A stretch of 64,000 nucleotides of DNA from Desulfoglaeba alkanexedens ALDC. Its GTDB lineage: Bacteria; Desulfobacterota; Syntrophobacteria; Syntrophobacterales; DSM-9756. The notes under the pieces are model-generated. The model had not been told where the DNA came from, did no database searches, and was given only the letters and a program-made list of their open reading frames with translations. Position 1 is the stretch's first letter. Each line of letters begins with the position of its first letter. Shown here in pieces: positions 26,112 through 42,852 of this stretch. The position numbers and the translations under genes are program-made. The stretch lies in the NCBI RefSeq assembly GCF_005377625.1, contig NZ_CP040098.1, forward strand, positions 2,903,279 through 2,967,278, given 5' to 3'.

Positions 26112-27086
26112 GTGGAAAACCGACCACTCGTTACGCAAATTCAACGATTTTCCGTAAACGACGGACCCGGGTTTCGGACGATCGTGTTTTTTAAGGGATG
26201 TCCTTTCCGGTGTCAATGGTGCCATAACCCTGAAACACAGTCGTTTTCCCCCGAGATTTACTGGAAAAGTAGATTATGCGTTCAATGCGGACACTGTTTC
26301 GATGTCTGTCCCAACCAGGCGATTTTCCCTCCGATTCCCCCGGAAGAAGCTCAGCGTGAGGACTCGACCTACTATAAGATCGACAAGGCGAGATGTGACC
26401 GGTGTATGAAATGCGTGGAGGCGTGCAGCTACGGTGCGCTCGAGCAGGTCGGCAAGCCCATGTCCATTGAAGAAATCGTCGAAGAGCTCGAGCGGGATCG
26501 GCCTTTCTATGACAATTCCGGAGGGGGGGTGACCATCAGTGGCGGGGAGCCTCTGGTGTTTGGCGAATTTGTCCGAAAGCTGATGGATGCGCTCAAGGCG
26601 CGAAGCCTTCATATCTGCCTTGATACTTCGGGCCATTCGCCCTGGGAGGTATTGGAGCCCGTCGCCGAACGAGCCGACATCATTCTGTACGACCTGAAAC
26701 ATCTCGACTCCGATGAACATGAGCGCCTGACAGGTGTACCGAACCAGCTCATTCTTCACAATTTGCAGAGGCTTGCGGCAAAGGGCTGCAGGATCTGGCT
26801 GAGAATTGTGGTGTTGCCCCGCTGCACCGATTCGATTGACTACCACCGCCGTGTGGTCGCTTTTCTTCGAAGTCTTCCCGGATCGTTGGAACGTATCGAC
26901 TTGCTGCCCTTTCACAACTGGTGCCAGGACAAATACCGCTGGCTTGGACGACCCTGGTCCTTTGCCGAGACGGAAAGTGTTCACCCGGATGAGGTGGAGC
27001 CGTTGTTGGAGCTGTACCTGTCGGCGGGACTGAATGCGACGATTGGTGGGTCGGGTTTTGATGCACAGGCAACGGCATCGGGGTGA
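26112..27086 (+). CDS. assD: Alkylsuccinate synthase activating enzyme, copy 1
   Basis: The 324-residue protein is a radical-SAM glycyl-radical-activating enzyme. The SAM-cluster motif is CPFRCQWC (CxxxCxxC, about residues 31-38). A ferredoxin-like insert with two further clusters follows: CVQCGHCFDVCP (about 56-67) and CDRCMKCVEACS (about 93-104). NSGGGVTISGGEPLVF is the SAM-contacting GGE motif. It would abstract hydrogen from the glycine of AssA to form the stored radical. It starts with GTG after AAGGAGGTGTTTAA. It is first in the order D-C-A-B, as in benzylsuccinate synthase operons. The copy 2 protein differs at only a handful of residues. Confidence 0.92.
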   Translation: MENRPLVTQIQRFSVNDGPGFRTIVFFKGCPFRCQWCHNPETQSFSPEIYWKSRLCVQCGHCFDVCPNQAIFPPIPPEEAQREDSTYYKIDKARCDRCMKCVEACSYGALEQVGKPMSIEEIVEELERDRPFYDNSGGGVTISGGEPLVFGEFVRKLMDALKARSLHICLDTSGHSPWEVLEPVAERADIILYDLKHLDSDEHERLTGVPNQLILHNLQRLAAKGCRIWLRIVVLPRCTDSIDYHRRVVAFLRSLPGSLERIDLLPFHNWCQDKYRWLGRPWSFAETESVHPDEVEPLLELYLSAGLNATIGGSGFDAQATASG

Positions 27087-27316
27087 TGAACCCCGGCTTA
27101 TGGCGATTGACGAACGCGTTGACGAACGTGAAGCAAAGGAGGTGAGCAAACGTTAGGAATGGAAGCCCCGCATGGTTCCGGTAGAGAACGACGGCTGACC
27201 ACCTGGTTCTGTGCTGACCCGGTGCCGATGGGGGGAAGTCGGTGCAATCTGTTTGGATAAACCTGGGCAATCGGTAGGTGGATGGAGCTGGAAGAGAAAA
27301 AGAAAGGAGGAGTCAA
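27087..27316 (+). other. assD1-assC1 spacer with a possible leader ORF
   Basis: A strong AAAGGAGGTGA site lies at about 27135-27145 but is followed only by very short frames. An 18-codon frame (27100-27156, MAIDERVDEREAKEVSKR) spans it and is kept in copy 2 with two changes. After that the two copies diverge, with an extra stretch of about 20 bases in copy 2 near 32645. A regulatory leader or mRNA structure is possible, but nothing further can be supported. Confidence 0.4.
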
Positions 27317-27481
27317 ATGCCTACATGTAAAGAATGCAAGAATTATTTTCCTCAGGAAGATGATGAATCTATGGGTGACTGTGTTCAGCGGGTAGTGGAT
27401 CCCAGGCAGGCATACTACAGGGCCAAGCCTGTGGCGGCTGACCAGGACGCCTCGAAGTGCAGCCAATTTGCAAAGAGGTAA
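27317..27481 (+). CDS. assC: Alkylsuccinate synthase small subunit AssC, copy 1
   Basis: A 54-residue protein with cysteines arranged CKECKNYF...GDCVQR...KCSQF, the same four-cysteine plan as the gamma subunit BssC of benzylsuccinate synthase, which binds a HiPIP-like [4Fe-4S] cluster. It should sit against the large subunit AssA and stabilise it. The ATG at 27317 follows AAAGGAGGAGTCAA; an in-frame upstream ATG at 27278 lacks such a site. The encoded protein is identical to that of copy 2 (32763-32927). Confidence 0.88.
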   Translation: MPTCKECKNYFPQEDDESMGDCVQRVVDPRQAYYRAKPVAADQDASKCSQFAKR

Positions 27482-27508
27482 TCGATATTCTACTAAGGAG
27501 GAATTACA

Positions 27509-30010
27509 ATGGCACAAGCAGCTGAAGCAAGAGAGGACATCGAACAACTGAAAGAGAGCCAGCAATGGTGGAAGCTGGCCGAAAAGCTGCGCAGCCCGCG
27601 GCTGGACTATCTGCGCAAGGCGGTTTGGAAAAAAGGCCCAATAGGTGGAGTGTATGCTCCGGGTATCAAAATTGAGCTAATGCGCAATATCCTTTTCACT
27701 GAGTCATGGAAGGAAAACGAGCGTGATCCCATCATGATGCGCAAAGCTAAAGCGCTCGCCCATGTCTGGCGGAATATACCGATATTTATCACCGATCACG
27801 CTCAGCTTGTAGGCTATGTTGGGAGTGCCCCCAATACGCTTGGGATGTGGCCTATTGAGGGCGCAAGCATGGTGAACGAGGAGGTGTACAACGACGAGGG
27901 CGTTATTCCGGAACCTGAAGAGGAATCGCTCAAGATTATGGCTGATCTCAACAACTACTGGGCGGGAAAGACGGCTATCGACCAGGTTGCGAGGCTGCTC
28001 GACCCCGAGGATGCAGTAAAGTTCATGAGTGGAGCGATTGGTTGGGGTGTGCCCACCTCGGCTTATGGCTACTCCGGGAAAGACTATGAATATCTGTTGA
28101 CGGGAAAGCGCGGGTTCGAAGATATCATGGAGGAAATAGAAGCCAGGTTGGACGAGGCGCAAGAGATTGTCCGTGGAACACCCGGGCCTGAGCTTTTACC
28201 CTACTACGAAAAAATCCAAAACTGGGAGGCGATGCTGATCGTCCTCGAAGCGGCCGTCGACTGGGCACGCCGTTACGCCCGGCTGGCTCGCATTATCGCG
28301 GAGAACTTCGAAAGCGACCCCAAACGCAAGGAGGAGCTTCTGCGTATTGCCGAGACCTGTGAGCGGGTGCCCGCAAAGGCGCCGAGGTCGCTGCAGGAAT
28401 CGCTGCAAATGGACCATTTCATCCAGATCCTCGCCCGGTACGAGGCATACGAGGGTGCGTGGCCTGCCCGGCCGGACTACTATCACGGGCCGTTCTACGA
28501 CAAGGATGTCAACATCGAGAAGAACCTGACCCGTGAAGAGGCACTGGACCTGGTGGGTGAATTCATGATCCGGGCATACGAAGTCGGGGGCTTTGGTCCA
28601 CGTTGGGGCAGGGAAGGACTGCAAGGGATTACCGGCACATGGGTGTGGACTATTGGCGGCGTCAAGCCGGACGGCACCGACGCGTGCAACGATTTGACAA
28701 GAGCGTTTCTACAAGCCGCCAGGCTTGTCAGGGTGGCCAACCCGACGTTCGCCTTTCGCTGGCATCCCAAGGTCCCCGACGACATCATGCGCGAATGCTT
28801 CGAATGCATCCGGCACGGGCTTGGTTATCCCTCCATGCGTAACGATCCGATCCTTGTGCAAAATGCCATGTATTGGCATGGGCATCCCCTGGAGGAAGCG
28901 AGAACATGGGTCCACCAGGCGTGTATGTCGCCGTGTCCGACCACAAAGCATGGTTTTCAGCCGTTCCGTATGGCCTCTGCGACCGCGAATTGCGCCAAGA
29001 TGATCGAGTATGCTCTGTTCAACGGCTATGATCCCGTTGTGAATATGCAAATGGGTCCCAAGACGGGAGATGCGAGGAAGTTCAAAAGCTTCGACGAGCT
29101 GTTTGAAGCCTGGGTGAAGCAGATGGAGTGGCTCACCGATACGCTTGTGAGAACGGTCAATCTCGGACGGGTAAAAGATCCGGAGTTTTATGGAAGACCG
29201 TTTCTTTCAGCCATTTCCGAGCGATCGGTGGAACAGGGCACAGACATTGTGAACCCTGAAGGTGAGCGAGGCAACAGCTGGGTTACGGGCTTTACCTGGG
29301 TCGAGAACGCGGACAGTCTTGCTGCCGTAAAAAAGCTTGTCTTCGACGAGAAGAAATACACGATGGATCAATTGATGGACGCTTTGCAGGCCAACTGGGA
29401 CGGTTATGAAGAAATGCGCCTGGATTTCGTGCGGAATGCTCCCAAGTGGGGAAATGATGACGACTATGTGGACCAGATCATGGTGCGTTGCCTTGAAGAG
29501 GTTGCCAGGCATTCGAAAGAGCTGAAAGATCCAACTGGGAATCCGTGGCCGCTTTTACCTGAGAACGTAAGCGGGAATATCCACTATGCCAACATCGTTG
29601 GGGCCCTTCCCAACGGCCGCAAACGCGGCGACGCGCTCTATGACGGCGGGATCTCGCCCGGTCCGGGGCTTGACAAGAAGGGGCCTACCGCGGTGCTCAA
29701 ATCCTGCGGCAAGTTCGACCATGTGCGCCTTGGGCGTGCCTTCCTCCTCAATCAGCGCCTTTCCCCGACCCAGCTCAAGGGTGAGCAGGGCTATCAGTTG
29801 TGGAAGGCCTACATGCGGACCTGGGCGGACCTCGGTCTGGACCACGTACAGTTCAACATGGTCGATGACGCCACGCTTAGGGCGGCGCAGAAGGACCCCG
29901 AAAAGTACCAGGAAGTGATCGTCCGGGTTGCCGGCTACAGCGCCCATTTTGTGGACATCAGCCGCAAGACCCAGGACAATATCATTCAAAGAACCATTCA
30001 GGGTCTGTAA
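27509..30010 (+). CDS. assA: Alkylsuccinate synthase catalytic subunit, copy 1
   Basis: The 833-residue protein is a glycyl-radical enzyme of the X-succinate synthase group, which adds the subterminal carbon of an n-alkane to fumarate. The catalytic cysteine is in HQACMSPCP (Cys472). The radical glycine is in RVAGYSAHFVD (Gly809), 25 residues from the C-terminus, as in pyruvate formate-lyase relatives. Length and order match known AssA/MasD and BssA. Start: AAGGAGGAATTACA before the ATG. It differs from copy 2 at about 16 residues, half of them clustered around residues 128-150, so substrate range is probably similar. Assignment to alkanes rather than toluene rests on recognition of AssA-like sequence and on the fatty-acid-type neighbours. 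Confidence 0.93.
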   Translation: MAQAAEAREDIEQLKESQQWWKLAEKLRSPRLDYLRKAVWKKGPIGGVYAPGIKIELMRNILFTESWKENERDPIMMRKAKALAHVWRNIPIFITDHAQLVGYVGSAPNTLGMWPIEGASMVNEEVYNDEGVIPEPEEESLKIMADLNNYWAGKTAIDQVARLLDPEDAVKFMSGAIGWGVPTSAYGYSGKDYEYLLTGKRGFEDIMEEIEARLDEAQEIVRGTPGPELLPYYEKIQNWEAMLIVLEAAVDWARRYARLARIIAENFESDPKRKEELLRIAETCERVPAKAPRSLQESLQMDHFIQILARYEAYEGAWPARPDYYHGPFYDKDVNIEKNLTREEALDLVGEFMIRAYEVGGFGPRWGREGLQGITGTWVWTIGGVKPDGTDACNDLTRAFLQAARLVRVANPTFAFRWHPKVPDDIMRECFECIRHGLGYPSMRNDPILVQNAMYWHGHPLEEARTWVHQACMSPCPTTKHGFQPFRMASATANCAKMIEYALFNGYDPVVNMQMGPKTGDARKFKSFDELFEAWVKQMEWLTDTLVRTVNLGRVKDPEFYGRPFLSAISERSVEQGTDIVNPEGERGNSWVTGFTWVENADSLAAVKKLVFDEKKYTMDQLMDALQANWDGYEEMRLDFVRNAPKWGNDDDYVDQIMVRCLEEVARHSKELKDPTGNPWPLLPENVSGNIHYANIVGALPNGRKRGDALYDGGISPGPGLDKKGPTAVLKSCGKFDHVRLGRAFLLNQRLSPTQLKGEQGYQLWKAYMRTWADLGLDHVQFNMVDDATLRAAQKDPEKYQEVIVRVAGYSAHFVDISRKTQDNIIQRTIQGL

Positions 30011-30021
30011 AGGGATGATTG

Positions 30022-30056
30022 GCCCGATACGGCGGATTACCCCTCCCGTATCGGGC
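30022..30056 (+). promoter_or_regulatory. Conserved hairpin between assA1 and assB1
   Basis: GCCCGATACGG pairs perfectly with CCGTATCGGGC (11 bp) across a 13-base loop. It starts 12 bases after the assA stop and lacks a T-run. The same stem is present in copy 2 with a different loop. It is more likely an mRNA-stabilising or partial-termination element that sets subunit ratios than a full terminator. Confidence 0.7.
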
Positions 30057-30178
30057 ATTCAAATTCGTAAGATGTGTCCATGCCTCATCGGCTGGTGTGG
30101 GCTTATCAAAGACCGGTAGCTTGAATATCTCGCAAGGAGAATGAGGCGGGCAAGCCATCGAAAGGGAGGGGAAATTTT

Positions 30179-30403
30179 ATGAAATGTTCAGCTTGTGGAT
30201 TTGAGGCTCCAGCAAATAAATTCCGTTATCTCTACAACGCTCGGATTGACGACCCTTTGTCTATGCGCCAATGTATAAAGTGCGGCGAAGTGATCGCCGT
30301 GAACGAGCTCAAGGGAGAAGCGGTGCAAATCGTCAAGCCCGGTGACGCACCGTGGGGTAAATCCGCCGGTATAGAGGGTGTTACACCATCTGTGCTGGAC
30401 TAG
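30179..30403 (+). CDS. assB: Alkylsuccinate synthase small subunit AssB, copy 1
   Basis: A 74-residue protein with two CxxC pairs (C3-x2-C6 in MKCSACGFEAP and C32-x2-C35 in RQCIKCGEV), like the rubredoxin-like or HiPIP-like beta subunit BssB. It should bind AssA and limit access to the active site. The ribosome binding site is AAAGGGAGGGGAAATTTT. It is three residues shorter than copy 2, because the duplicated block ends here: the last codon is followed by a stop and unrelated sequence. Apart from the tail the two proteins are nearly identical. Confidence 0.88.
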   Translation: MKCSACGFEAPANKFRYLYNARIDDPLSMRQCIKCGEVIAVNELKGEAVQIVKPGDAPWGKSAGIEGVTPSVLD

Positions 30404-30639
30404 GTTGTTTTGTCAAGCGGGCTCTCCGCATTGCGGGTGCCGATAAGGGGGAAACCGCCCGCATGCGGCTCCTCCCGGACGGCCAGTTTATGGAGGTGTG
30501 ATATAATTTAAAGTTTTCCCCAATGTCTAGCAAAAAATGCCGAGGCTTAAGCTCAGTGCAACGGGTTGGCCGAGCCGAGCGGAGCCCATGCGGAGCTCAG
30601 GCGAGGCGAGGCCAACCCTTCCTTATCCTCCTCTATAGG

Positions 30640-30840
30640 ATAGAAGGATCTCGGCGGTTTATAACCAAAATTCTGATGTAACCTCTCGTTATTGTAGAAA
30701 TCAAAGTAACCCTCCAAGCCCTCGAGGGCCTCCCCGGGGGTGCAGTAGTCCTTGACATAGACTTCCTCATATTTTACCCAGCGCACAGACGCTCCACCAT
30801 GATGTTGTCAAATGCCCTTCCCCGGCCATCCATGCTGATT
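30640..30840 (-). pseudogene. C-terminal remnant of an IS3-family transposase (OrfB)
   Basis: On the minus strand, ISMDGRGRAFDNIMVERLC is followed, after a one-base frameshift, by WVKYEEVYVKDYCTPGEAL and YFDFYNNERLHQNFGYKPP. These are the hallmark end of IS3-family integrase-type transposases. The catalytic DDE core upstream is missing and the frame runs out into an inverted repeat, so this is a dead fragment. It probably marks an insertion that once lay between the two ass modules. Confidence 0.8.
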
Positions 30841-31538: not shown

Positions 31539-32513
31539 GTGGAAAACCAACCACTCGTTACGCAAATTCAGCGATTTTCCGTAAATGACGGACCCGGGTT
31601 TCGGACGATCGTGTTTTTTAAGGGATGTCCCTTGCGGTGTCAATGGTGCCATAACCCTGAAACACAGTCGTTTTCCCCCGAGATTTACTGGAAAAGTAGA
31701 TTATGCGTTCAATGCGGACACTGTTTCGATGTCTGTCCCAATCAGGCGATTTTCCCTCCGATTCCCCCGGAAGAAGCTCAGCGTGAGGACTCGACCTACT
31801 ATAAGATCGACAAGGCGAGATGTGACCGGTGTATGAAATGCGTGGAGGCGTGCAGCTACGGTGCGCTCGAGCAGGTCGGCAAGCCCATGTCCATGGAAGA
31901 AATCGTCGAAGAGCTCGAGCGGGATCGGCCTTTCTATGACAATTCCGGAGGGGGGGTGACTATCAGTGGCGGGGAGCCTCTGGTGTTTGGCGAATTCATT
32001 CGAAAGCTGATGGATGCGCTCAAGGCGCGAAACCTTCATATCTGCCTTGATACTTCGGGGCATTCGCCCTGGGAGATATTGGAGCCCGTCGCCGAGCGAG
32101 CCGACATCATTCTGTACGACCTGAAACATCTCGACTCCGATGAACATGAGCGCCTGACAGGCGTACCGAACCAGCTCATTCTTCACAATTTGCAGAGGCT
32201 TGCGGCAAAGGGCTGCAGGATCTGGCTGAGAATTGTGGTGTTGCCCGGCTGCACCGATTCGATTGATTACCACCGCCGTGTGGTTGCTTTTCTTCGAAGT
32301 CTTCCCGGATCGTTGGAACGTATCGACTTGCTGCCCTTTCACAACTGGTGCCAGGACAAATACCGCTGGCTTGGACGACCCTGGTCGTTTGCCGAGACGG
32401 AAAGTGTTCACCCGGATGAGGTGGAGCCGTTGTTGGAGCTGTACCTGTCGGCGGGACTGAATGCGACGATTGGTGGGTCGGGTTTTCAGGCACAGGCAAC
32501 GGCATCGGGGTGA
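31539..32513 (+). CDS. assD: Alkylsuccinate synthase activating enzyme, copy 2
   Basis: The 324-residue radical-SAM activase is a near twin of copy 1. CPLRCQWC replaces CPFRCQWC, and the two ferredoxin-type cluster motifs (CVQCGHCFDVCP, CDRCMKCVEACS) and the GGE motif are intact. Differences are scattered and conservative (for example V to I in the GEFIRKLM segment, R to G in VLPGCTDS). The GTG start and AAGGAGGTGTTTAA site are the same. Both activases should be able to charge either AssA copy. Confidence 0.92.
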   Translation: MENQPLVTQIQRFSVNDGPGFRTIVFFKGCPLRCQWCHNPETQSFSPEIYWKSRLCVQCGHCFDVCPNQAIFPPIPPEEAQREDSTYYKIDKARCDRCMKCVEACSYGALEQVGKPMSMEEIVEELERDRPFYDNSGGGVTISGGEPLVFGEFIRKLMDALKARNLHICLDTSGHSPWEILEPVAERADIILYDLKHLDSDEHERLTGVPNQLILHNLQRLAAKGCRIWLRIVVLPGCTDSIDYHRRVVAFLRSLPGSLERIDLLPFHNWCQDKYRWLGRPWSFAETESVHPDEVEPLLELYLSAGLNATIGGSGFQAQATASG

Positions 32514-32762
32514 TGAACCCCGGCGTATGGCGATTGACGAACGCGTTGACGAACGTAAAGGAAAGGAGGTGAGCAAACGTTAGGAACGGAAGCCCCGCAT
32601 GGTTCCGGTAGAGAACGATGGTTGACTGCCTGGTTCTGTACTGACGATTTCTGATGCTGCTCTCGCGGTGCCGATGGGGGAAAGCCAGTGTAATCTCTTT
32701 GGGTAAGCCCGGGCAATGGGCATGTGGATGGAGCTGGAAGAGAAAAAGAAAGGAGGAGTCAA

Positions 32763-32927
32763 ATGCCTACATGTAAAGAATGCAAGAATTATTTTCCTCA
32801 GGAAGATGATGAATCTATGGGCGACTGTGTTCAGCGGGTAGTGGATCCCAGGCAGGCATACTACAGGGCCAAGCCTGTGGCGGCTGACCAGGACGCCTCG
32901 AAGTGCAGCCAATTTGCAAAGAGGTAA
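32763..32927 (+). CDS. assC: Alkylsuccinate synthase small subunit AssC, copy 2
   Basis: The 54-residue four-cysteine subunit has the same predicted protein as copy 1. The DNA is almost unchanged over the gene, whereas the preceding spacer (32514-32740) has drifted and gained about 20 bases. The start is again set by AAAGGAGGAGTCAA. It lies 27 bases upstream of assA2. Confidence 0.88.
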   Translation: MPTCKECKNYFPQEDDESMGDCVQRVVDPRQAYYRAKPVAADQDASKCSQFAKR

Positions 32928-32954
32928 TCGATATTCTGCTAAGGAGGAATTACA

Positions 32955-35456
32955 ATGGCACAAGCAGCTGAAGCAAGAGAGGACATCGAACAACTGAAAG
33001 AGAAGCAGCAATGGTGGAAGGTGGCCGAAAAGCTGCGCAGCCCGCGGCTGGACTATCTGCGCAAGGCGGTTTGGAAAAAAGGCCCAATAGGTGGAGTGTA
33101 TGCTCCGGGTATCAAAGTTGAGCTAATGCGCAATATCCTTTTCACTGAGTCATGGAAGGAAAACGAGCGTGATCCCATTATGATGCGCAAAGCCAAAGCG
33201 CTCGCCCATGTCTGGCGGAATATACCGATATTTATCACCGATCACGCTCAGCTTGTAGGCTATGTCGGGAGTGCCCCCAATACGCTTGGGATGTGGCCTA
33301 TTGAGGGCGCAAGCATGGTGAACGAAGAGGCGTACAACGAAGAGGGTGTTATTCCGGAACCTGAGGAGGAATCCCTCAGGACGATCGCCGAGATTAACAA
33401 CTACTGGGCGGGAAAGACGGCTATCGACCAGGTTGCGAGGCTGCTCGACCCCGAGGATGCAGTAAAGTTCATGAGTGGAGCGATTGGTTGGGGTGTGCCC
33501 ACCTCGTCTTATGGCTACTCCGGGAAAGACTATGAATATCTGTTGACGGGAAAGCGCGGGTTCGAAGATATTATGGAGGAAATAGAAGCCAGGTTGGATG
33601 AAGCGCAAGAGATTGTCCGTGGAACACCCGGGCCTGAGCTTTTACCCTACTACGAAAAAATCCAAAACTGGGAGGCGATGCTGATCGTCCTCGAAGCGGC
33701 CGTCGACTGGGCACGCCGTTACGCCCGGCTGGCTCGCATTATCGCAGAGAACTTCGAAAGCGACCCCAAACGCAAGGAGGAGCTTCTGCGCATTGCCGAA
33801 ACCTGTGAGCGGGTGCCCGCAAAGGCGCCGAGGTCGCTGCAGGAATCGCTGCAAATGGACCATTTCATCCAGATCCTCGCCCGGTACGAGGCATACGAGG
33901 GTGCGTGGCCTGCCCGGCCGGACTACTATCACGGGCCGTTCTACGACAAGGATGTCAATATCGAGAAGAACCTGACCCGTGAAGAGGCACTGGACCTGGT
34001 GGGTGAATTCTTGATCCGGACATACGAAGTCGGGGGCTTTGGTCCACGTTGGGGCAGGGAAGGACTGCAAGGGATTACCGGCACCTGGGTGTGGACTATT
34101 GGCGGCGTCAAGCCGGACGGCACCGACGCGTGCAACGATTTGACAAGAGCGTTTCTACAAGCCGCCAGGCTTGTCAGGGTGGCCAACCCGACGCTCGCCT
34201 TTCGCTGGCATCCCAAGGTCCCCGACGACATCATGCGCGAATGCTTCGAATGCATCCGGCACGGGCTTGGTTATCCCTCCATGCGTAACGATCCGATCCT
34301 TGTGCAAAATGCCATGTATTGGCATGGGCATCCCCTGGAGGAAGCGAGAACATGGGTCCACCAGGCGTGTATGTCGCCGTGTCCGACCACAAAGCATGGT
34401 TTTCAGCCGTTCCGTATGGCCTCTGCGACCGCGAATTGCGCCAAGATGATCGAGTATGCTCTGTTCAACGGCTATGATCCCGTTGTGAATATGCAAATGG
34501 GTCCCAAGACGGGAGATGCGAGGAAGTTCAAAAGCTTCGACGAGCTGTTTGAAGCCTGGGTGAAGCAGATGGAGTGGCTCACCGATACGCTTGTGAGAAC
34601 GGTCAATCTCGGACGGGTAAAAGATCCGGAGTTTTATGGAAGACCGTTTCTTTCAGCCATTTCCGAGCGATCGGTGGAACAGGGCACTGACATTGTGAAC
34701 CCTGAAGGTGAGCGAGGCAACAGCTGGATTACGGGGTTTACCTGGGTCGAGAATGCCGACAGTCTCGCTGCCGTAAAAAAGCTTGTCTTCGACGAGAAGA
34801 AATACACGATGGATCAATTGATCGACGCTTTGCAGGCCAACTGGGACGGTTACGAAGAAATGCGCCTGGATTTCGTGCGGAATGCTCCCAAGTGGGGAAA
34901 TGACGACGACTATGTGGACCAGATCATGGTGCGTTGCCTTGAAGAGGTTGCCAGGCATTCGAAAGAGCTGAAAGATCCCACTGGGAATCCATGGCCGCTT
35001 TTGCCCGAGAACGTGAGCGGGAATATCCACTATGCCAACATCGTTGGGGCCCTTCCCAACGGCCGCAAACGCGGCGACGCGCTCTATGACGGTGGGATCT
35101 CGCCCGGTCCGGGGCTTGACAAGAAGGGGCCTACCGCGGTGCTCAAATCCTGCGGCAAGTTCGACCATGTGCGCCTTGGGCGTGCCTTCCTCCTCAATCA
35201 GCGCCTTTCCCCGACCCAGCTCAAGGGTGAGCAGGGCTATCAGTTGTGGAAGGCCTACATGCGGACCTGGGCGGACCTCGGTCTGGACCACGTACAGTTC
35301 AACATGGTCGATGACGCCACGCTCAGGGCGGCGCAGAAGGACCCCGAAAAGTACCAGGAAGTGATCGTCCGGGTTGCCGGCTACAGCGCCCATTTTGTGG
35401 ACATCAGCCGCAAGACCCAGGACAATATCATTCAGAGAACCATTCAGGGTCTGTAA
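32955..35456 (+). CDS. assA: Alkylsuccinate synthase catalytic subunit, copy 2
   Basis: An 833-residue glycyl-radical enzyme with the same catalytic HQACMSPCP (Cys472) and radical RVAGYSAHFVD (Gly809) as copy 1. The roughly 16 differences include EEAYNEEG for EEVYNDEG, SLRTIAEINN for SLKIMADLNN, EFLIRT for EFMIRA, and a few single changes. A stretch of about 490 bases around the active-site cysteine (34195-34687) is identical to copy 1 at every position I compared, which points to recent gene conversion. This copy, unlike copy 1, is followed by the accessory genes and so may be the main operon. Confidence 0.93.
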   Translation: MAQAAEAREDIEQLKEKQQWWKVAEKLRSPRLDYLRKAVWKKGPIGGVYAPGIKVELMRNILFTESWKENERDPIMMRKAKALAHVWRNIPIFITDHAQLVGYVGSAPNTLGMWPIEGASMVNEEAYNEEGVIPEPEEESLRTIAEINNYWAGKTAIDQVARLLDPEDAVKFMSGAIGWGVPTSSYGYSGKDYEYLLTGKRGFEDIMEEIEARLDEAQEIVRGTPGPELLPYYEKIQNWEAMLIVLEAAVDWARRYARLARIIAENFESDPKRKEELLRIAETCERVPAKAPRSLQESLQMDHFIQILARYEAYEGAWPARPDYYHGPFYDKDVNIEKNLTREEALDLVGEFLIRTYEVGGFGPRWGREGLQGITGTWVWTIGGVKPDGTDACNDLTRAFLQAARLVRVANPTLAFRWHPKVPDDIMRECFECIRHGLGYPSMRNDPILVQNAMYWHGHPLEEARTWVHQACMSPCPTTKHGFQPFRMASATANCAKMIEYALFNGYDPVVNMQMGPKTGDARKFKSFDELFEAWVKQMEWLTDTLVRTVNLGRVKDPEFYGRPFLSAISERSVEQGTDIVNPEGERGNSWITGFTWVENADSLAAVKKLVFDEKKYTMDQLIDALQANWDGYEEMRLDFVRNAPKWGNDDDYVDQIMVRCLEEVARHSKELKDPTGNPWPLLPENVSGNIHYANIVGALPNGRKRGDALYDGGISPGPGLDKKGPTAVLKSCGKFDHVRLGRAFLLNQRLSPTQLKGEQGYQLWKAYMRTWADLGLDHVQFNMVDDATLRAAQKDPEKYQEVIVRVAGYSAHFVDISRKTQDNIIQRTIQGL

Positions 35457-35467
35457 AGGGATGATTG

Positions 35468-35500
35468 GCCCGATACGGCGGATTACCTGCCGTATCGGGC
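35468..35500 (+). promoter_or_regulatory. Conserved hairpin between assA2 and assB2
   Basis: GCCCGATACGGC pairs with GCCGTATCGGGC (12 bp) around a loop of 9 bases. The stem is the same as in copy 1 but one pair longer, and the loop differs in length and sequence, so the stem rather than the loop is being kept. There is no T-run. Confidence 0.7.
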
Positions 35501-35622
35501 ATTCAAATGCGTAAGATGCGTCCATGCCTCATCGGCTGGTGTGGGCTTATCAAAGACCGGTAGCTTGAATATCTCGCAAGGAGAATGAGGCGGGCAAGCC
35601 ATCGAAAGGGAGGGGAGATTTT

Positions 35623-35856
35623 ATGAAATGTCCAGCTTGTGGATTTGAGGCTCCAGCAAATAAATTCCGTTATCTCTACAATGCTCGGATTGACGACCCT
35701 TTGTCTATGCGCCAATGTATAAAGTGCGGCGAAGTGATCGCAGTGAACGAGCTCAAGGGAGAAGCGGTGCAAATCGTCAAGCCCGGTGACGCGCCGTGGG
35801 GTAAATCCGCCGGTATAGAGGGTGTTACACCATCTGTGCTGGACATGGAGGGGTGA
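35623..35856 (+). CDS. assB: Alkylsuccinate synthase small subunit AssB, copy 2
   Basis: A 77-residue protein with CPACGFEAP near the N-terminus and RQCIKCGEV in the middle, matching copy 1 except for S to P at position 4 and the extra C-terminal MEG. The stop is immediately followed by the start of the next gene (TGATATGG), so the operon continues here. This probably is the original downstream junction, and copy 1 was cut off at this point. Confidence 0.88.
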   Translation: MKCPACGFEAPANKFRYLYNARIDDPLSMRQCIKCGEVIAVNELKGEAVQIVKPGDAPWGKSAGIEGVTPSVLDMEG

Positions 35857-35857
35857 T

Positions 35858-36235
35858 ATGGCTGCAAGGGAAAAACGATCCTCCCGGCGGAGTCAATGGG
35901 AGGAAATGCGCAAGGGTTTGACGGGCGAGCTGTCGAAGAAAAGCTTCGAGGAGCGGGAGAAACTGCCCGAGAAGGCTTGTGGAAAGTGTAAGCACTTCTC
36001 CGAGAACGCATATGTATCTGATGGAAGGGGATTCTGCGCGGTGCTGAAGGTCGGAAGCAACATTGCCGCGGACCCGCCGGTGTGCGTTCTTGAAGGGGAT
36101 GCCGGGATGATGACCATATTTAACATGGATGCTTCCAGGTGCCCCTACTACGATCAGATGGAATTTATTGACACGGATGGCACCGAATGCGCCGATCCTC
36201 AATTCCGGCGTGCCCTGAGGCAATTCAAGTCGTAA
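35858..36235 (+). CDS. Small cysteine-rich protein, AssC-like
   Basis: A 125-residue protein with a basic N-terminal half (MAAREKRSSRRSQWEEM) and a C-terminal cysteine domain: CGKCKHF, GFCAVL, PPVCVLEG and SRCPYYDQ. The order CxxCKxF ... GxC ... CxxF/Y resembles AssC (CKECKNYF ... GDC ... KCSQF), so it could be a further iron-sulfur subunit of the synthase or an assembly factor. The ATG at 35858 starts one base after the assB2 stop with GGAGGGGTGAT upstream. There is no counterpart in the first ass module. I do not know a named homologue; some alkylsuccinate synthases are reported to have an additional small subunit, which is the best guess. Confidence 0.7.
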   Translation: MAAREKRSSRRSQWEEMRKGLTGELSKKSFEEREKLPEKACGKCKHFSENAYVSDGRGFCAVLKVGSNIAADPPVCVLEGDAGMMTIFNMDASRCPYYDQMEFIDTDGTECADPQFRRALRQFKS

Positions 36236-36250
36236 GACCTGTTCACATAG

Positions 36251-36281
36251 CCAGGGGGGCGAGATCGATCTCGCCCCCCGG
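36251..36281 (+). terminator. Strong hairpin after the AssC-like gene
   Basis: GGGGGGCGAGAT and ATCTCGCCCCCC form a perfect 12-bp GC-rich stem centred at about 36267, extended by CC/GG. No T-run follows and the next gene starts 20 bases later, so partial termination or mRNA protection is as likely as full termination. Confidence 0.55.
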
Positions 36282-36301
36282 CTGGACGCGGGAGATTCAA
36301 A

Positions 36302-36655
36302 ATGAACCTTACATGTAACAAATGCGGATTCACGGCCGAATACATCGAGTTTCGGTACATCTGCAAGACGGGCTGACCGGCTTGCGGAGAGGCTGATCTC
36401 CGCGAGTGCCCCAGGTGTGGGAACCAGTGTCATTTTTCGAGGAATGATGCCCTGGAACAAGAGCAGGAAGAGATGAAAGAGATGTCGAAACGTCTCGCGG
36501 CGATTACAGCATCCAGCGGTCCCGAGGCTCTGGACGAAGCGCGGGAGATTATGCGGAAGCTTAAGCGCATGAATCTGAGGTGGAACATATCGGCTCTGGA
36601 CGCATTCGTCAAAACCCGGCGGCGGGAACTTTTTCCGCAGGATTATGGGAATTAG
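36302..36655 (+). CDS. AssB-like cysteine-rich protein with in-frame UGA (candidate selenoprotein)
   Basis: From the ATG at 36302 an open frame of 117 codons runs to the TAG at 36653-36655, interrupted only by TGA at codon 25 (36374-36376). The start reads MNLTCNKCGFTAEYIEFRYI and then CKTG-stop-PACGEADLRECPRCGNQC. The N-terminus aligns with AssB (CxxCGF, FRY, CxxCG), and reading TGA as selenocysteine gives a UxxC redox motif. A 10-bp hairpin with GG at the start of its loop begins 5 bases after the TGA, as a bacterial SECIS would. The C-terminal half is charged and helical. If selenocysteine is not inserted, this is a nonsense-mutated gene, or only the 61-residue tail from 36473 is made. Confidence 0.5.
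36381..36406 (+). promoter_or_regulatory. SECIS-like hairpin downstream of the in-frame TGA
   Basis: CTTGCGGAGA pairs with TCTCCGCGAG over 10 positions (one G-T) around the loop GGCTGA. The loop starts with GG, like the apical G needed by SelB in bacterial SECIS elements. The loop begins 15 bases after the TGA, a little closer than the roughly 18 of E. coli fdhF. Confidence 0.45.
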
Positions 36656-36735: not shown

Positions 36736-37581
36736 ATGACGTTCGATCTTTCCAGCTTCGTTCCCGCACCGGAAGAGCACTTTTTCCTGCCAAACAGTGT
36801 GGTGGAGAATCTGGAGCGCATTGCCGCACTTTCGCAAAGGCATCCTGTGAACGTGCTGGTCGCCGGCAAGCAGGGGTGTGGCAAATCGACTCTCGTGAAA
36901 CAGTTCGCTGCACGCAACCGGCGCCCGCTTGCAACCTTCCAGATCGGCATCCTTTCGGAGCCGGGTCAGCTTTTCGGCGAGCACCGCTTAAAGGATGGAG
37001 AGACCTACTACCAGCAGTTTTTGTTTCCCCAGGCCATTCAAACCCCGGGTTGTGTAATCCACCTGGAGGAAATCAACCGCCCCGAGCATCCGAAAGCGCT
37101 TAATATGCTTTTTTCCGTCCTGGCCGAAGACCGCAAGGTCTGGCTGGACGAGCTTGGACTCATACGGGTTGCCGACGGCGTCGTCTTCATGGCTACCCTC
37201 AACGAGGGAGAAGAATTCGTAGGTACGGAGTTGTTGGACGCCGCCTTGCGGGATCGTTTCTATGTCACCGCCTTGGATTACTTGCCCGCGGATGTTGAAA
37301 CAAAGGTGCTCCATTACAAGACCGGGATCCCTGAAGCGGAAGCACTGACAATCGTCAATGTGGCTAACAAGCTGAGGGGTAATTCGAAGGACCCGATGGT
37401 TGTTTCGACGCGCCACACGCTCATGATCGCCGAAATGGTGGCAGTGGGGGCATCCATCGAAGACGCTTTCATTTACAGTCTCCAGGCGGGTAAGGACTTA
37501 CTGGAGTCTATTCTGCTTTCGCTCCATGTGCAATTGGGGAAAAAAGATGCGCACACCGAAACCGGCTATCAAATCTACTGA
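36736..37581 (+). CDS. MoxR-family AAA+ ATPase 1 (BssE-like)
   Basis: The 281-residue protein is an AAA+ ATPase of the MoxR/CbbQ type. The Walker A motif is GKQGCGKS (residues 44-51), Walker B is VIHLEEINR, sensor 1 is FMATLNEGEEF, and the arginine-finger region is AALRDRFYV. MoxR ATPases act with VWA proteins to remodel or load cofactors into enzymes. In benzylsuccinate operons bssE encodes a protein of this class that may help the radical enzyme assemble. The start follows AAAAGGAGGAATCCAACAAA. It overlaps the VWA gene downstream, the usual MoxR-VWA pairing, and has a paralogue at 40283-41167. Confidence 0.88.
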   Translation: MTFDLSSFVPAPEEHFFLPNSVVENLERIAALSQRHPVNVLVAGKQGCGKSTLVKQFAARNRRPLATFQIGILSEPGQLFGEHRLKDGETYYQQFLFPQAIQTPGCVIHLEEINRPEHPKALNMLFSVLAEDRKVWLDELGLIRVADGVVFMATLNEGEEFVGTELLDAALRDRFYVTALDYLPADVETKVLHYKTGIPEAEALTIVNVANKLRGNSKDPMVVSTRHTLMIAEMVAVGASIEDAFIYSLQAGKDLLESILLSLHVQLGKKDAHTETGYQIY

Positions 37582-39328
37582 TTGGTTCAAGCCGGCAATG
37601 GCTAAAATCCCGGAGCCCGGCGCCGGAGACGATGCGAGGCGGTTGGACCGGCTTATCAATGAGGCGGGGGCCGCCGGGCTCTCCCGGTACTGGCGCAGGA
37701 ACATATCCCAGCTGGAATCCTCGGAACTGGCCTATGCACTCCGGGCATTGGAGAAGGTCGCCGGGCACGTTGGCCATAACGTCGGGCGCATAGAATGGGC
37801 TGGTATGTCGACGGACGACACGGACGTCATCGTGCTCGATCCAGGCCTTATCATGGGGGACTATCCGATTCCCGCCTCGATGTTCGACTATCTGGTGGGC
37901 ATTGTGGTCCATGAAGCCCTTCATCGAAAGGAATGGACGGATCTGGTGTGGAAGAAGTCGCATGAGGCGACCTTGGACATGCCGGTACGGGAAAAGATCG
38001 CCTTTCACAAGATTGTCTATACCGGGGAAGATATTTATGTTGATTTCTTTTCCCAACGGAACATCCTTGGTGAGTACGTCCGGCTTGCCCGTGAGGTGGA
38101 GCTTCGCCAGGAGGAGCCGTTTCTTGGGGATATTCCTGTCAGTCTGGACAGGCTTGTGCACCATTGGCGGCGGAGCGCCTTCGATCAAAACAAATCGGCG
38201 GGTGTTGAACAAATGGACCAGGTGCTGCGTCTCCTCCATGAGTCGACGGGGGAACTTCGGTCCATCGGGTTTGCGTCGGGGGGAGTTGTCAGGCGATGTG
38301 AACTCAGGGCGCGGCTGTACCTTGAGACCTGGAAGAAAATCGCGCCCCATGTGGAGGGATGGAAAATCCTCGACATGTCGCTTTTATGGTATCCACGGGA
38401 CGGTTCCGAAAAGGTGCGTCCAATCAGGAGAAAAAGAAAGGTCCAGACCCGCCTTTCTGCCAACCTGGCTCAAGACATCGAGGAGAAACTCGCCGCCCAT
38501 TCAGCGGATATAACGCCCATTATTCGCAAGGTGGCCGGCGCGGACAATCCCGACGTCGTTCCCACGTCCCGGTGGGATTTCAATAATCCGATCAGCCCGG
38601 TCGTCGATCCTAGAATGATCGGGCGCATTCAAGGTGTGCTCCAAAGCTACGCGGAACGTGTAACGGTGTATAACCGGGGGCTTACTTCAGGAAGAGTGGA
38701 TCGTCGGAGGCTGTATAGAGCGCCGGTGAATGGGCGATGCTTTTTCCAAAAGCAGGCGCTGCCCAATCTTGACTGGAATATTTGTCTGTTGGTCGATGCC
38801 AGCGGCTCCATGGCCGGAGCACGCTGGAGGATGGTGGAAAGTATCGTTGCCACTCTGCACAAGGCCTTTCACGGTTTCCGCAACAGGCTTCAGGCCTTCG
38901 GGTATTTCGAGGTGGACGGGGTTTGCATGCTCTCCAGCCTGCTCGACGGCAAGCGTGTACTTTCAATACCTCCGAGCGGTCAAACGGCGTCTGGACAAGC
39001 CATCATTGCCGCTGCTTACTTCATGCCCAAGGATGCCAGGAGAAGGTTTATTATCCATGTGACGGACGGGGAGTCGAACTTCGGATGTGACGTCCAAATT
39101 GGAATCGATCACTGCCTTGCGGAGAGGATTCATCTTGTGACCCTTGGGGTCGCCTGTAAGGACCGTGAGGCAATGGTGGAGCAGTACGGCAACGGAATTC
39201 GGTTTCTCGATCATTTCGGCCAGTTGCCCGGCGCGATCGAACATCTTCTCAAGTGGACGCTTCTGGGCGAAGCAAAAGCGCTTATGGCCGGTTCTCGCCC
39301 GGTAAGGCAGAAGGCATCTGCCGTGTGA
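37547..39328 (+). CDS. VWA-domain protein with an HExxH motif, partner of MoxR ATPase 1
   Basis: About 593 residues. The C-terminal third is a von Willebrand A domain with an intact metal-ion-dependent adhesion site: LLVDASGSMAG (near residue 414), SGQTASGQA and IHVTDGESNFG. The N-terminal part contains VVHEALHRKEW (HExxH at about residues 122-126), a zinc-peptidase-like motif not seen in ordinary MoxR partners. An acidic segment follows (YTGEDIYVDFF, with glutamate and aspartate), which could supply the third ligand. The start is uncertain: 37547 follows GGGGAAAAAAG, while 37526 and 37598 are alternatives. The gene overlaps the ATPase gene by about 35 bases. The paralogue at 41164 lacks the histidines, so this copy may be the metal-binding one. 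Confidence 0.82.
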   Translation: MRTPKPAIKSTDWFKPAMAKIPEPGAGDDARRLDRLINEAGAAGLSRYWRRNISQLESSELAYALRALEKVAGHVGHNVGRIEWAGMSTDDTDVIVLDPGLIMGDYPIPASMFDYLVGIVVHEALHRKEWTDLVWKKSHEATLDMPVREKIAFHKIVYTGEDIYVDFFSQRNILGEYVRLAREVELRQEEPFLGDIPVSLDRLVHHWRRSAFDQNKSAGVEQMDQVLRLLHESTGELRSIGFASGGVVRRCELRARLYLETWKKIAPHVEGWKILDMSLLWYPRDGSEKVRPIRRKRKVQTRLSANLAQDIEEKLAAHSADITPIIRKVAGADNPDVVPTSRWDFNNPISPVVDPRMIGRIQGVLQSYAERVTVYNRGLTSGRVDRRRLYRAPVNGRCFFQKQALPNLDWNICLLVDASGSMAGARWRMVESIVATLHKAFHGFRNRLQAFGYFEVDGVCMLSSLLDGKRVLSIPPSGQTASGQAIIAAAYFMPKDARRRFIIHVTDGESNFGCDVQIGIDHCLAERIHLVTLGVACKDREAMVEQYGNGIRFLDHFGQLPGAIEHLLKWTLLGEAKALMAGSRPVRQKASAV

Positions 39329-40282: not shown

Positions 40283-41167
40283 GTGATGTCTTCGGAAAAG
40301 CATTTACGAATACCCAATCTCGATCCGGACTTTTTTATTCTTGAACGAGACAGGGTCAATCTGGAACGGTTCGCGCGGCTTTCAGAGCGGCATCCTGTCA
40401 ACATAATGGTGACGGGAAGCCAGGGCTGTGGCAAGTCGTCCCTCGTAAGGCAGTTTGCCGCTATTTACGGGAGACCTTTGGCTACGTTCCAGGTGGGGCT
40501 CCTGGCCGAATCCGGACAGCTTTTCGGCCAACAGAGGCTCCAATCCGGTGAAACCTATTTCAAGGAGTTTCTGTTCTCCAAGGCCATCCAGACTCCGGGT
40601 TGCGTGATACATCTCGAGGAAATCAACCGCTCCGAGACGCCTCATGCCTTGAACGAGCTTTTTTCCGTGCTTTCCGAGGATCGCAGCATCTGGATCGATG
40701 AGCTGGGAACCGTAAAGGTGGCGCCCGGGGTTATATTCTTCGCCACCATGAACGAGGGAGAGAAGTTTACCGGGGTCGAGGAGATCGACGCGGCTCTGAG
40801 GGACCGGTTCTATTATATTCAGCTCGAGTACTTGCCTCATGAAGTTGAAAAGCAGGTCTTGGTGAGAAAGACGGGATTATCGGAGTCCGGAGCAGACCGG
40901 ATCTTGAATGTGATCAACCATATCAGGACCAATGAGCAAGCCGGCGTCAGCGTTTCCATAAGGCACAGCCTGATGATTGCGGAACTGGTTTCTTTAGGGG
41001 CCTCTTTGCGCGAGGCGCTCGTCTACAGTCTACAGATTTCCAGGGATGCTCTCGAATCCCTGCTTCTATCGGTACACGTTCAAACGCAGGATACGGAAGC
41101 GGAGTTGGACCGATATGTCGTGTATGTTCCCGAGAGCTCCCCGGCTACGGAAAAGGTTTTCCAATGA
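40283..41167 (+). CDS. MoxR-family AAA+ ATPase 2 (BssE-like)
   Basis: The 294-residue protein is a clear paralogue of the ATPase at 36736. Walker A is GSQGCGKS (residues 45-52), Walker B VIHLEEINR, sensor 1 FFATMNEGEKF, and the arginine-finger region AALRDRFYY. Both share LATFQVGLLAESGQLFG-like sequence but are well diverged overall, so this duplication is much older than that of assDCAB. The start is GTG at 40283 or the ATG three bases later. It overlaps the following VWA gene by 4 bases (ATGA). Confidence 0.87.
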   Translation: MMSSEKHLRIPNLDPDFFILERDRVNLERFARLSERHPVNIMVTGSQGCGKSSLVRQFAAIYGRPLATFQVGLLAESGQLFGQQRLQSGETYFKEFLFSKAIQTPGCVIHLEEINRSETPHALNELFSVLSEDRSIWIDELGTVKVAPGVIFFATMNEGEKFTGVEEIDAALRDRFYYIQLEYLPHEVEKQVLVRKTGLSESGADRILNVINHIRTNEQAGVSVSIRHSLMIAELVSLGASLREALVYSLQISRDALESLLLSVHVQTQDTEAELDRYVVYVPESSPATEKVFQ

Positions 41168-42852
41168 AAACATACTCTCTGTACTGGCGAAAAAACACTT
41201 CGAAGGAGGAGGCGGTCGAGCTCGCCCTTTGCCTTCGCTCCTTGCGTAAGGTTGCTTCTCATTTGGGATACAACGTCAAGCCCGTCTACTGGGAAGGTAT
41301 GGTCGATTCCGATGAGCGATCCATTTTGTTGGATCCGGCCGCTGTTAGAGGAAAATATCCCATCCCCTTCAACAAGTACGACATTCTGGTTGGACAGGTT
41401 ATCCTCGAAGGGAAGTCTTCTATGGAATGGCGGGAATGGGTTATTGGCAAGGTGGTGGAGGAGGCGGGGGAACTGAGCGGAGATGCTGAAGCAATTCTGC
41501 TTAAGATCGCCGGGGCAGCTGAGGACATATACGTTACGGAATGGGCGAAAAGCCATGTCTGGAGGCATTACCTGCGGCGTTTTTGGGAGGCCAGGCTCAG
41601 TGCCGGGCAACGTGATCCGGCTTTGCCTCCAACTGCGGACAGCCTTGCCGACATGTGGCGCAGGGAGGTGTTGTTGGGACGGACAAGTCGGAATCTACAT
41701 CAATACTATCACGGTCCTCTTGCGCTGTTGAATGCCTATACGGCCAAGATTGCAAACTGCCTGGCGCTTGCCGGCGTCGGCCGCCGGAGGGATTACAGGA
41801 AAAACTTATATCATGAGCTGTGGGCGCGGCTGTTCGAGGCTATCCAGGAGTGGGAATCATTCCAGTTGTCTCCCGATGCGGTCGGCTTGAGGGACGAGAT
41901 GGGTGTGAAGGGTGAAGTAGACGTTGAGACGGACACGCCGCGCAGATCGACGGATCTTGAACGCAACGAGGACCTGGAAGAGGATGTCATCGACAAGCTC
42001 AATTCCATCCTGGAAGCGGATGACACGATCGATCTGACCTCGGTTGTCTCCGCCGCGGTGGAAGACCCCGAGGCGGCCCCGATAAAAACGGTGTTCTCGA
42101 AAAGCGCGGTTCCAAGTGATATGATGCCCGACAAGGTGCAGACGGCTGTTATGAAAAAGCTTTTCAGGGATCAGGAGTTGTTTCTGAGACGGCGGCAGAT
42201 GAGGGGGGCGACCAGGAGGGGGCTGACAGAGGGCAAGCTTGATGCCCGCCGCTTATATCGGGTGCCCCTCGATGGCAAAGTTTTCAAAAACCGGGAATGC
42301 ACAAAAACCCGGAAGGCGTGGCACATCTGCATTGTGGTAGACGCTTCCGCGTCCATGAGTGGAAGAGGGGAGCATGGAAGTGTGATTCCCTGGGAGCTTG
42401 CCGAAAGGACCTTCGTTTCCCTTGCGGAAGCGATCAAAGGCTCAAAAAACACCCTCGATATCCATGCATACTGCGAACGTGGGGGCCAGTGTGTCATTAC
42501 CAACCTTTTTCACGGCGGCAGGGTGCACACCGTTGTTCCTTCCGGTCGCACTCCGTCAGGTCAGGCGATATTGGGTGCGGCCGCGATGATGGAAAAAGGC
42601 CATCCTCAAAACATGATGATTCACATAACGGATGGCGCTGCCAATTGTGGTTTGTCCCTCGGTGATGCGGTGCGGTTTTGCCGGAAAAACAACATCCGGC
42701 TTTTCACCATAGGATGCGGCTGTAACCAACAGACACAAGACTTTTTGAGCGGTTATTTCCCTGCTGAAAGTCTGTTTTTTATGAAAGATATGGGTGACCT
42801 TGCCATAGGCCTGTATGAGGTGTTTCGGCGCAACATTTTCGAGGCGGTATAA
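41164..42852 (+). CDS. VWA-domain protein, partner of MoxR ATPase 2
   Basis: The 562-residue protein pairs with the upstream ATPase by a 4-base start/stop overlap. The VWA domain holds CIVVDASASMSG (about residue 395), SGRTPSGQA and IHITDGAANCG, giving a plausible metal-binding site. The N-terminal region aligns with that of the VWA protein at 37547 (LALCLRSLRKVASHLGYNV against LAYALRALEKVAGHVGHNV). The position of the HExxH motif reads VILEGKSSMEW here, so the metal ligands are lost. The AEDIYV motif is retained. Together the two pairs suggest a heteromeric remodelling machine with one metal-binding and one non-binding arm. Confidence 0.82.
   Translation: MKTYSLYWRKNTSKEEAVELALCLRSLRKVASHLGYNVKPVYWEGMVDSDERSILLDPAAVRGKYPIPFNKYDILVGQVILEGKSSMEWREWVIGKVVEEAGELSGDAEAILLKIAGAAEDIYVTEWAKSHVWRHYLRRFWEARLSAGQRDPALPPTADSLADMWRREVLLGRTSRNLHQYYHGPLALLNAYTAKIANCLALAGVGRRRDYRKNLYHELWARLFEAIQEWESFQLSPDAVGLRDEMGVKGEVDVETDTPRRSTDLERNEDLEEDVIDKLNSILEADDTIDLTSVVSAAVEDPEAAPIKTVFSKSAVPSDMMPDKVQTAVMKKLFRDQELFLRRRQMRGATRRGLTEGKLDARRLYRVPLDGKVFKNRECTKTRKAWHICIVVDASASMSGRGEHGSVIPWELAERTFVSLAEAIKGSKNTLDIHAYCERGGQCVITNLFHGGRVHTVVPSGRTPSGQAILGAAAMMEKGHPQNMMIHITDGAANCGLSLGDAVRFCRKNNIRLFTIGCGCNQQTQDFLSGYFPAESLFFMKDMGDLAIGLYEVFRRNIFEAV

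Follow-up and report, generated by a model that had tools for sequence, protein, structure and literature searches.

The gene secP of Desulfoglaeba alkanexedens ALDC very probably encodes a selenoprotein, SecP, and very probably belongs to the alkylsuccinate synthase operon, as judged by comparative sequence analysis with no measurement of protein or of selenium. One of the main known routes by which oil alkanes enter anaerobic food webs is their addition to fumarate. The analyzed window is a stretch of 64,000 nucleotides (G000:C1:2903279-2967278) from a genome of 3.37 Mb on a single contig. An earlier note on this DNA had proposed SecP as a candidate selenoprotein, and the proposal was supported by a codon 25 that specifies only Sec or Cys, by a hairpin in the Sec forms and by the sel genes of the genome. 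The features are listed in Table 1.

Table 1. Features of the secP locus (positions within the window) and selenocysteine genes elsewhere in the genome (positions on contig C1)
Feature	Position	Strand	Basis or remark
Radical-SAM activating enzyme, AssD/MasG-like	31539-32513	+	first copy 98% identical
Gamma subunit, MasC-like	32724-32927	+	E 1.6e-13 to 9o8u_C
Catalytic alpha subunit AssA/MasD, glycyl radical enzyme	32955-35456	+	1416 bits to 9o8u_A
Delta subunit, MasE-like, rubredoxin-like	35623-35856	+	E 8e-21 to 9o8u_D
Beta subunit, MasB-like	35858-36235	+	E 5e-31 to 9o8u_B
Strong inverted repeat between beta gene and secP, without T run	36250-36282	+	sequence
Shine-Dalgarno-like GGGAG just 5' of the secP ATG	36290-36294	+	sequence; same in paralogue L002
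Predicted selenoprotein gene secP	36302-36655	+	ATG to TAG, 117 residues, U25
In-frame TGA at codon 25, inferred to encode selenocysteine	36374-36376	+	TGA 37, TGC/TGT 12 distinct sequences
SECIS-like hairpin core, 7 bp (36384-36390 with 36397-36403)	36384-36403	+	RNA folding, codon-preserving shuffles, covariation
MoxR-type AAA ATPase, directly downstream of secP	36736-37581	+	
VWA-domain partner of MoxR ATPase	37526-39328	+	
selD	C1:409171-410097		380 bits; own in-frame TGA
selB	C1:442104-444002		379 bits
tRNA-Sec	C1:707516-707610		anticodon tca
selA	C1:2150248-2151618		623 bits

The secP frame was open throughout except for the TGA at codon 25, which lies in the context CKTG-TGA-PAC, and it ended with TAG; both the 117-codon frame interrupted solely by this TGA and its context agreed with what the earlier note had described. 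SecP consists of an N-terminal four-Cys ribbon (residues 1-46) and a C-terminal three-helix part (residues 47-110). The ribbon cysteines C5, C8, C36 and C39, correctly placed in that note, were all invariant among the homologues, and N91, R93, W94 and N95 were invariant in the helices. Changes among homologues downstream of the TGA were found mostly at third codon positions (1778 vs 1082 and 780), indicating purifying selection on the coding frame after the TGA. Upstream of secP in the paralogue L002, the sequence differed from the inverted repeat of the window (36250-36282) and was again self-complementary in appearance.

A second copy of secP was detected in the same genome (C1:1984452-1984802, 91% identical, TGA retained) and sits in a second operon of the same composition (L083). 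Clear homologues were present in 18 of the 395 genomes of a draw from the phylum, its own genome included, the others showing 50-61% identity, and scanning species genomes with a profile yielded 43 named loci. Codon 25 was TGA in Desulfosarcina alkanivorans PL12, Smithella SCADC and one Firmicutes MAG. Both copies of Desulfatibacillum alkenivorans DSM 16219 (L068 and L069), which equal those of genome G090, carried TGC; D. alkenivorans and G090 belong to the same phylum as the genome of the window. A Dehalococcoidia MAG also had TGC at this codon, and a further genome from the phylum of that MAG had TGA. After removal of identical rows, 49 distinct sequences from several families and at least two other phyla remained, with TGA in 37, TGC or TGT in 12 and no other codon, so the search for homologues with Cys or TGA suggested by the earlier note returned these two states alone. 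A tree built without codon 25 required five changes between Sec and Cys, at least three of them forced by well-supported branches. No SecP match was obtained in single-sequence scans of genome contigs and viral contigs, in the profile scan of viral contigs, or in plasmids and phages.

A SECIS-like hairpin follows the TGA. Its loop, GGCTGA (6 nt, 36391-36396), starts 15 nt past the TGA. The earlier note had claimed a hairpin of 10 bp with a loop starting in GG; hairpin and loop were both recovered, and RNAfold gave 11 consecutive pairs for the window sequence, seven of which form the conserved core. Selection on the RNA was told apart from selection on the protein by redrawing the codons after codon 25 from the codon use of each locus, with the amino acids left unchanged. 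Under these shuffles the hairpins of Sec forms were more stable than expected (mean z -2.81; 86% at p<0.05), whereas those of Cys forms were not (mean z -0.03; 8% at p<0.05). In the Sec forms, the seven-pair core was paired in 90% of cells, more than in any shuffle or slid control, and showed 10 double (compensatory) changes, as against 65.5% of cells and no double change in the Cys forms. Seven Sec forms showed a swap of G-C to C-G; in these, residue 28 is Thr in place of Cys and Arg34 is encoded by CGG rather than CGC. L029, a Cys form that branches within the Sec forms, retained the full hairpin (z -3.2), as would be expected just after a recent loss of Sec. SECIS elements carry a G within the first two loop positions; this rule was met by 32 of the 37 Sec forms and failed in five. 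Some members of the Smithella clade, and L061, had only a weak hairpin, and an Rfam search gave no SECIS match. For the interval 36374-36420, where the earlier note had suggested a SECIS prediction, shuffles and covariation thus both point to a SECIS-like hairpin that is under selection in the Sec forms but not the Cys forms.

The genome encodes the machinery that such a gene would need: selA, selB and the tRNA-Sec, left by the earlier note to be checked, were all found, together with selD. Among 33 SecP carriers tested, 31 had selB above the cut-off; the two others were G440, whose locus L049 is a Cys form, and G237, a TGA form from an 85% complete genome. A member of the CxxC_Se_CxxC selenoprotein family with an in-frame TGA (L147, C1:1308195-1308353) was also identified in the own genome, which supports active use of Sec there. 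We propose that selenocysteine would be inserted at residue 25 by SelB and tRNA-Sec, with the hairpin immediately 3' of the TGA as their guide; the support for this step is comparative, not biochemical.

Two other readings of the TGA were considered, and neither retains any real credibility. It might be an ordinary stop, arisen by sequencing error or as a decayed codon, with the downstream frame left as a relic. TGA does serve as a normal stop codon here, and an ORF of 60 aa begins at a separate ATG (36473). This reading was rejected because 37 distinct sequences, drawn from independent assemblies, share the TGA at this codon and Cys is its sole alternative, because the downstream frame is under selection, and because the hairpin accompanies the TGA forms and, except in L029, not generally the Cys forms. 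Alternatively, the TGA might be suppressed or recoded to another residue such as Trp, or be read through at random. Read-through contexts do exist in bacteria, but TGA is used as the terminator of homologous genes, Cys alone takes its place at codon 25 and the Sec machinery is complete, and both TGA as Trp and random read-through were rejected on these grounds. The preferred reading remains a selenoprotein with Sec at residue 25.

The gene order around secP was activase, gamma, alpha, delta, beta, secP, MoxR ATPase and VWA, and all four subunits matched chains of the solved 1-methylalkylsuccinate synthase 9o8u. Across species, SecP was encoded together with alpha, beta, gamma, delta and the activase, which meets what is expected of a member of the ass/mas operon. 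Among the 43 named loci, a separate delta gene was found within 1.5 kb of secP in 27 of 35. AssA and SecP strongly co-occurred in a draw of 395 genomes (both in 16, AssA alone in three, SecP alone in two, neither in 374; p about 1e-23). The genomes with SecP and without AssA were G094, which is 85% complete, and G181, where the copy begins 136 bases from the contig end. Three AssA-bearing genomes of this draw had no SecP (G280, G320 and G407). In the operon of G407 the ATPase follows delta directly with no secP between them, indicating that SecP is dispensable somewhere and is common rather than universal. The mas cluster of Azoarcus HxN1 was likewise described without SecP.

Several further arrangements were observed at these loci. 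In the window, 26112-30403 and 31539-35856 are two nearly identical activase-gamma-alpha-delta sets in tandem (alpha 98% identical), of which only the second is followed by beta and secP. Within the stretch separating them, the minus strand at 30553-30786 resembles the end of an IS3-type transposase, as judged by eye. A second MoxR/VWA pair without secP (40283-42852) comes after the first. Some loci encode a pair of activating enzymes that are about 38-43% alike, and have an extra delta-like ribbon protein with a motif around ADSAG or ADEAG just upstream of the activases (L034 4262-4396, L042 3944-4108, L066 837-947, L069 3405-3515, L134 8967-9077 and L138 6089-6271).

Synteny and co-occurrence support SecP as an accessory factor of alkylsuccinate synthase. 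Its ribbon would most likely dock on the glycyl radical enzyme complex or on its activating enzyme, and the selenol, acting with the adjacent MoxR/VWA ATPase, could then carry out a redox step of the thiol type to mature, reduce or reset the enzyme; both steps are inferred. The Cys forms would do the same job as the Sec forms. A role of this thiol-redox kind is a tentative suggestion, possible but with the odds somewhat against it; the biochemical job is inferred only. The UxxC redox centre proposed in the earlier note could not be upheld as a thioredoxin-like centre, since its pair is not strictly conserved: Cys28 is replaced by Thr in eight of the 37 Sec forms. Cys21, a possible resolving partner, is also not invariant, and a simple UxxC dithiol cycle is thus unlikely to account for everything. 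A lone selenol, acting through a mixed selenide-sulfide with a partner protein or as a hydrogen-atom donor, fits SecP better. That the selenol donates a hydrogen atom to quench or reset the glycyl or thiyl radical of alkylsuccinate synthase, as a safety or repair device, is quite doubtful; if true, a protein radical would be controlled by selenium chemistry.

Two different roles for such a selenoprotein were weighed against this proposal. SecP may be partnered solely by the MoxR/VWA ATPase, forming a general repair module that merely travels with alkylsuccinate synthase. Linkage to the ATPase was indeed the tighter one: among the 43 named loci, it directly follows secP in 39 of the 40 with room, and in 24 of 29 alpha is found no more than 4 kb upstream. 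This is countered by the very strong co-occurrence with AssA at the genome level and by loci such as L035 and L057, where alpha is beyond 4 kb from secP but is found further along the same contig, so this reading is unlikely, though it should be kept in mind. It is rather improbable that Sec25 serves as a metal ligand, or as a helper in building the single-Fe or Fe-S sites of delta, beta and gamma, without thiol redox. The four invariant Cys with Sec on the loop between them, the three genes of metal-binding subunits next door and the lack of an invariant resolving Cys would all suit such a role. However, delta in 9o8u binds its one Fe through the four ribbon Cys and nothing else (PMC12358834), and the same four-Cys pattern is kept invariantly in SecP; moreover, the modelled Sec25 is on a lower-confidence loop between two strands (pLDDT about 69). 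An accessory selenoprotein of alkylsuccinate synthase remains the preferred reading of SecP.

The earlier note had regarded selenocysteine in an alkane-activation operon as new, and within the searchable literature this holds. No paper pairing alkylsuccinate synthase with a selenoprotein was found in the open literature, and a search for alkylsuccinate synthase with selenocysteine returned the Polymorphum genome paper only; most subscription papers could not be searched, and an earlier mention is possible. Alkane-activating enzymes have been hard to activate outside their own hosts, and a conserved selenoprotein in the operon suggests that a component needed for maturation or activity is missing. 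It also ties alkane degradation to the supply of selenium. Standard gene calling truncates the TGA forms of SecP at residue 24.

Among the selenoprotein families, papers and NCBIfam models that could be searched, none covers SecP, and searches of Pfam and NCBIfam gave no credible family. A 2026 inventory of 119 selenoprotein families ties none of them to glycyl radical enzymes, the nearest being DG and DW/OS_HP3 (PMC13188914). The zinc ribbon-containing (seleno)protein DG (NF049953; deep-Sep, PMC12013277; Table 1 of PMC13188914) is likewise a small zinc-ribbon selenoprotein of Desulfobacterota, and differs in its reported motif, GUxG vs GUPAC/TG in SecP. A few SecP members matched its model weakly (best E 4e-6). 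SecP members scanned singly reached 16-18 bits, where they matched at all, vs a cut-off of 130 bits; the window SecP gave no match, and none of 22 genomes tested passed the cut-off. The dual CXXC small selenoprotein CxxC_Se_CxxC (NF041197, OS_HP3/DW) has two CxxC motifs with Sec between them, as SecP does. The window SecP did not match this model (40-bit cut-off), and the member in the own genome is the one elsewhere on the contig (C1:1308195-1308353).

A second ribbon protein of 66-67 aa with an in-frame TGA was observed in three SecP carriers of one genus (g55, Smithella-type genomes), at L026 1453-1650 (-), L027 1501-1698 (+) and L028 1450-1650 (-). Its sequence, GTGG-U-HTVG...CPRCG, is about 27-30% like the N-terminus of SecP, and a hairpin-like GGATC...GATCC comes after the TGA. 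No alkylsuccinate genes were found nearby and no NCBIfam model was over the cut-off; it possibly represents another selenoprotein family.

The BssB/MasB beta subunits are also small Cys-rich accessory proteins of this enzyme class. The AssB-like fold claimed in the earlier note was not borne out: SecP had no match to 9o8u_B by phmmer or by profile, the neighboring gene is beta, and an identity of SecP as AssB/beta was rejected. Its relative is delta (MasE; PDB 9o8u chain D; PMC12358834), which is encoded in the same operons and has the same N-terminal CxxC...CxxC ribbon. The SecP profile matched 9o8u_D with E 0.002, and the SecP model superposed on MasE with an rmsd of 1.8 over 46 residues at 28% identity (Z 4.7, low by itself), so the first 46 residues are predicted to resemble the rubredoxin-like delta type. 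Foldseek gave no significant whole-chain match for the model, and structural matches to the helical tail were common bundles only. The site to which the activating enzyme has to bind is covered by delta (PMC12358834), and the delta C-terminal tail contacts the glycyl radical domain in 9o8u. MasE has neither Sec nor Cys at the loop matching that of Sec25. The delta C-tail (PWGKSAGIEGL in the delta genes here) is absent from SecP, which instead has a three-helix tail, ending in RWN...RQRELF helices.
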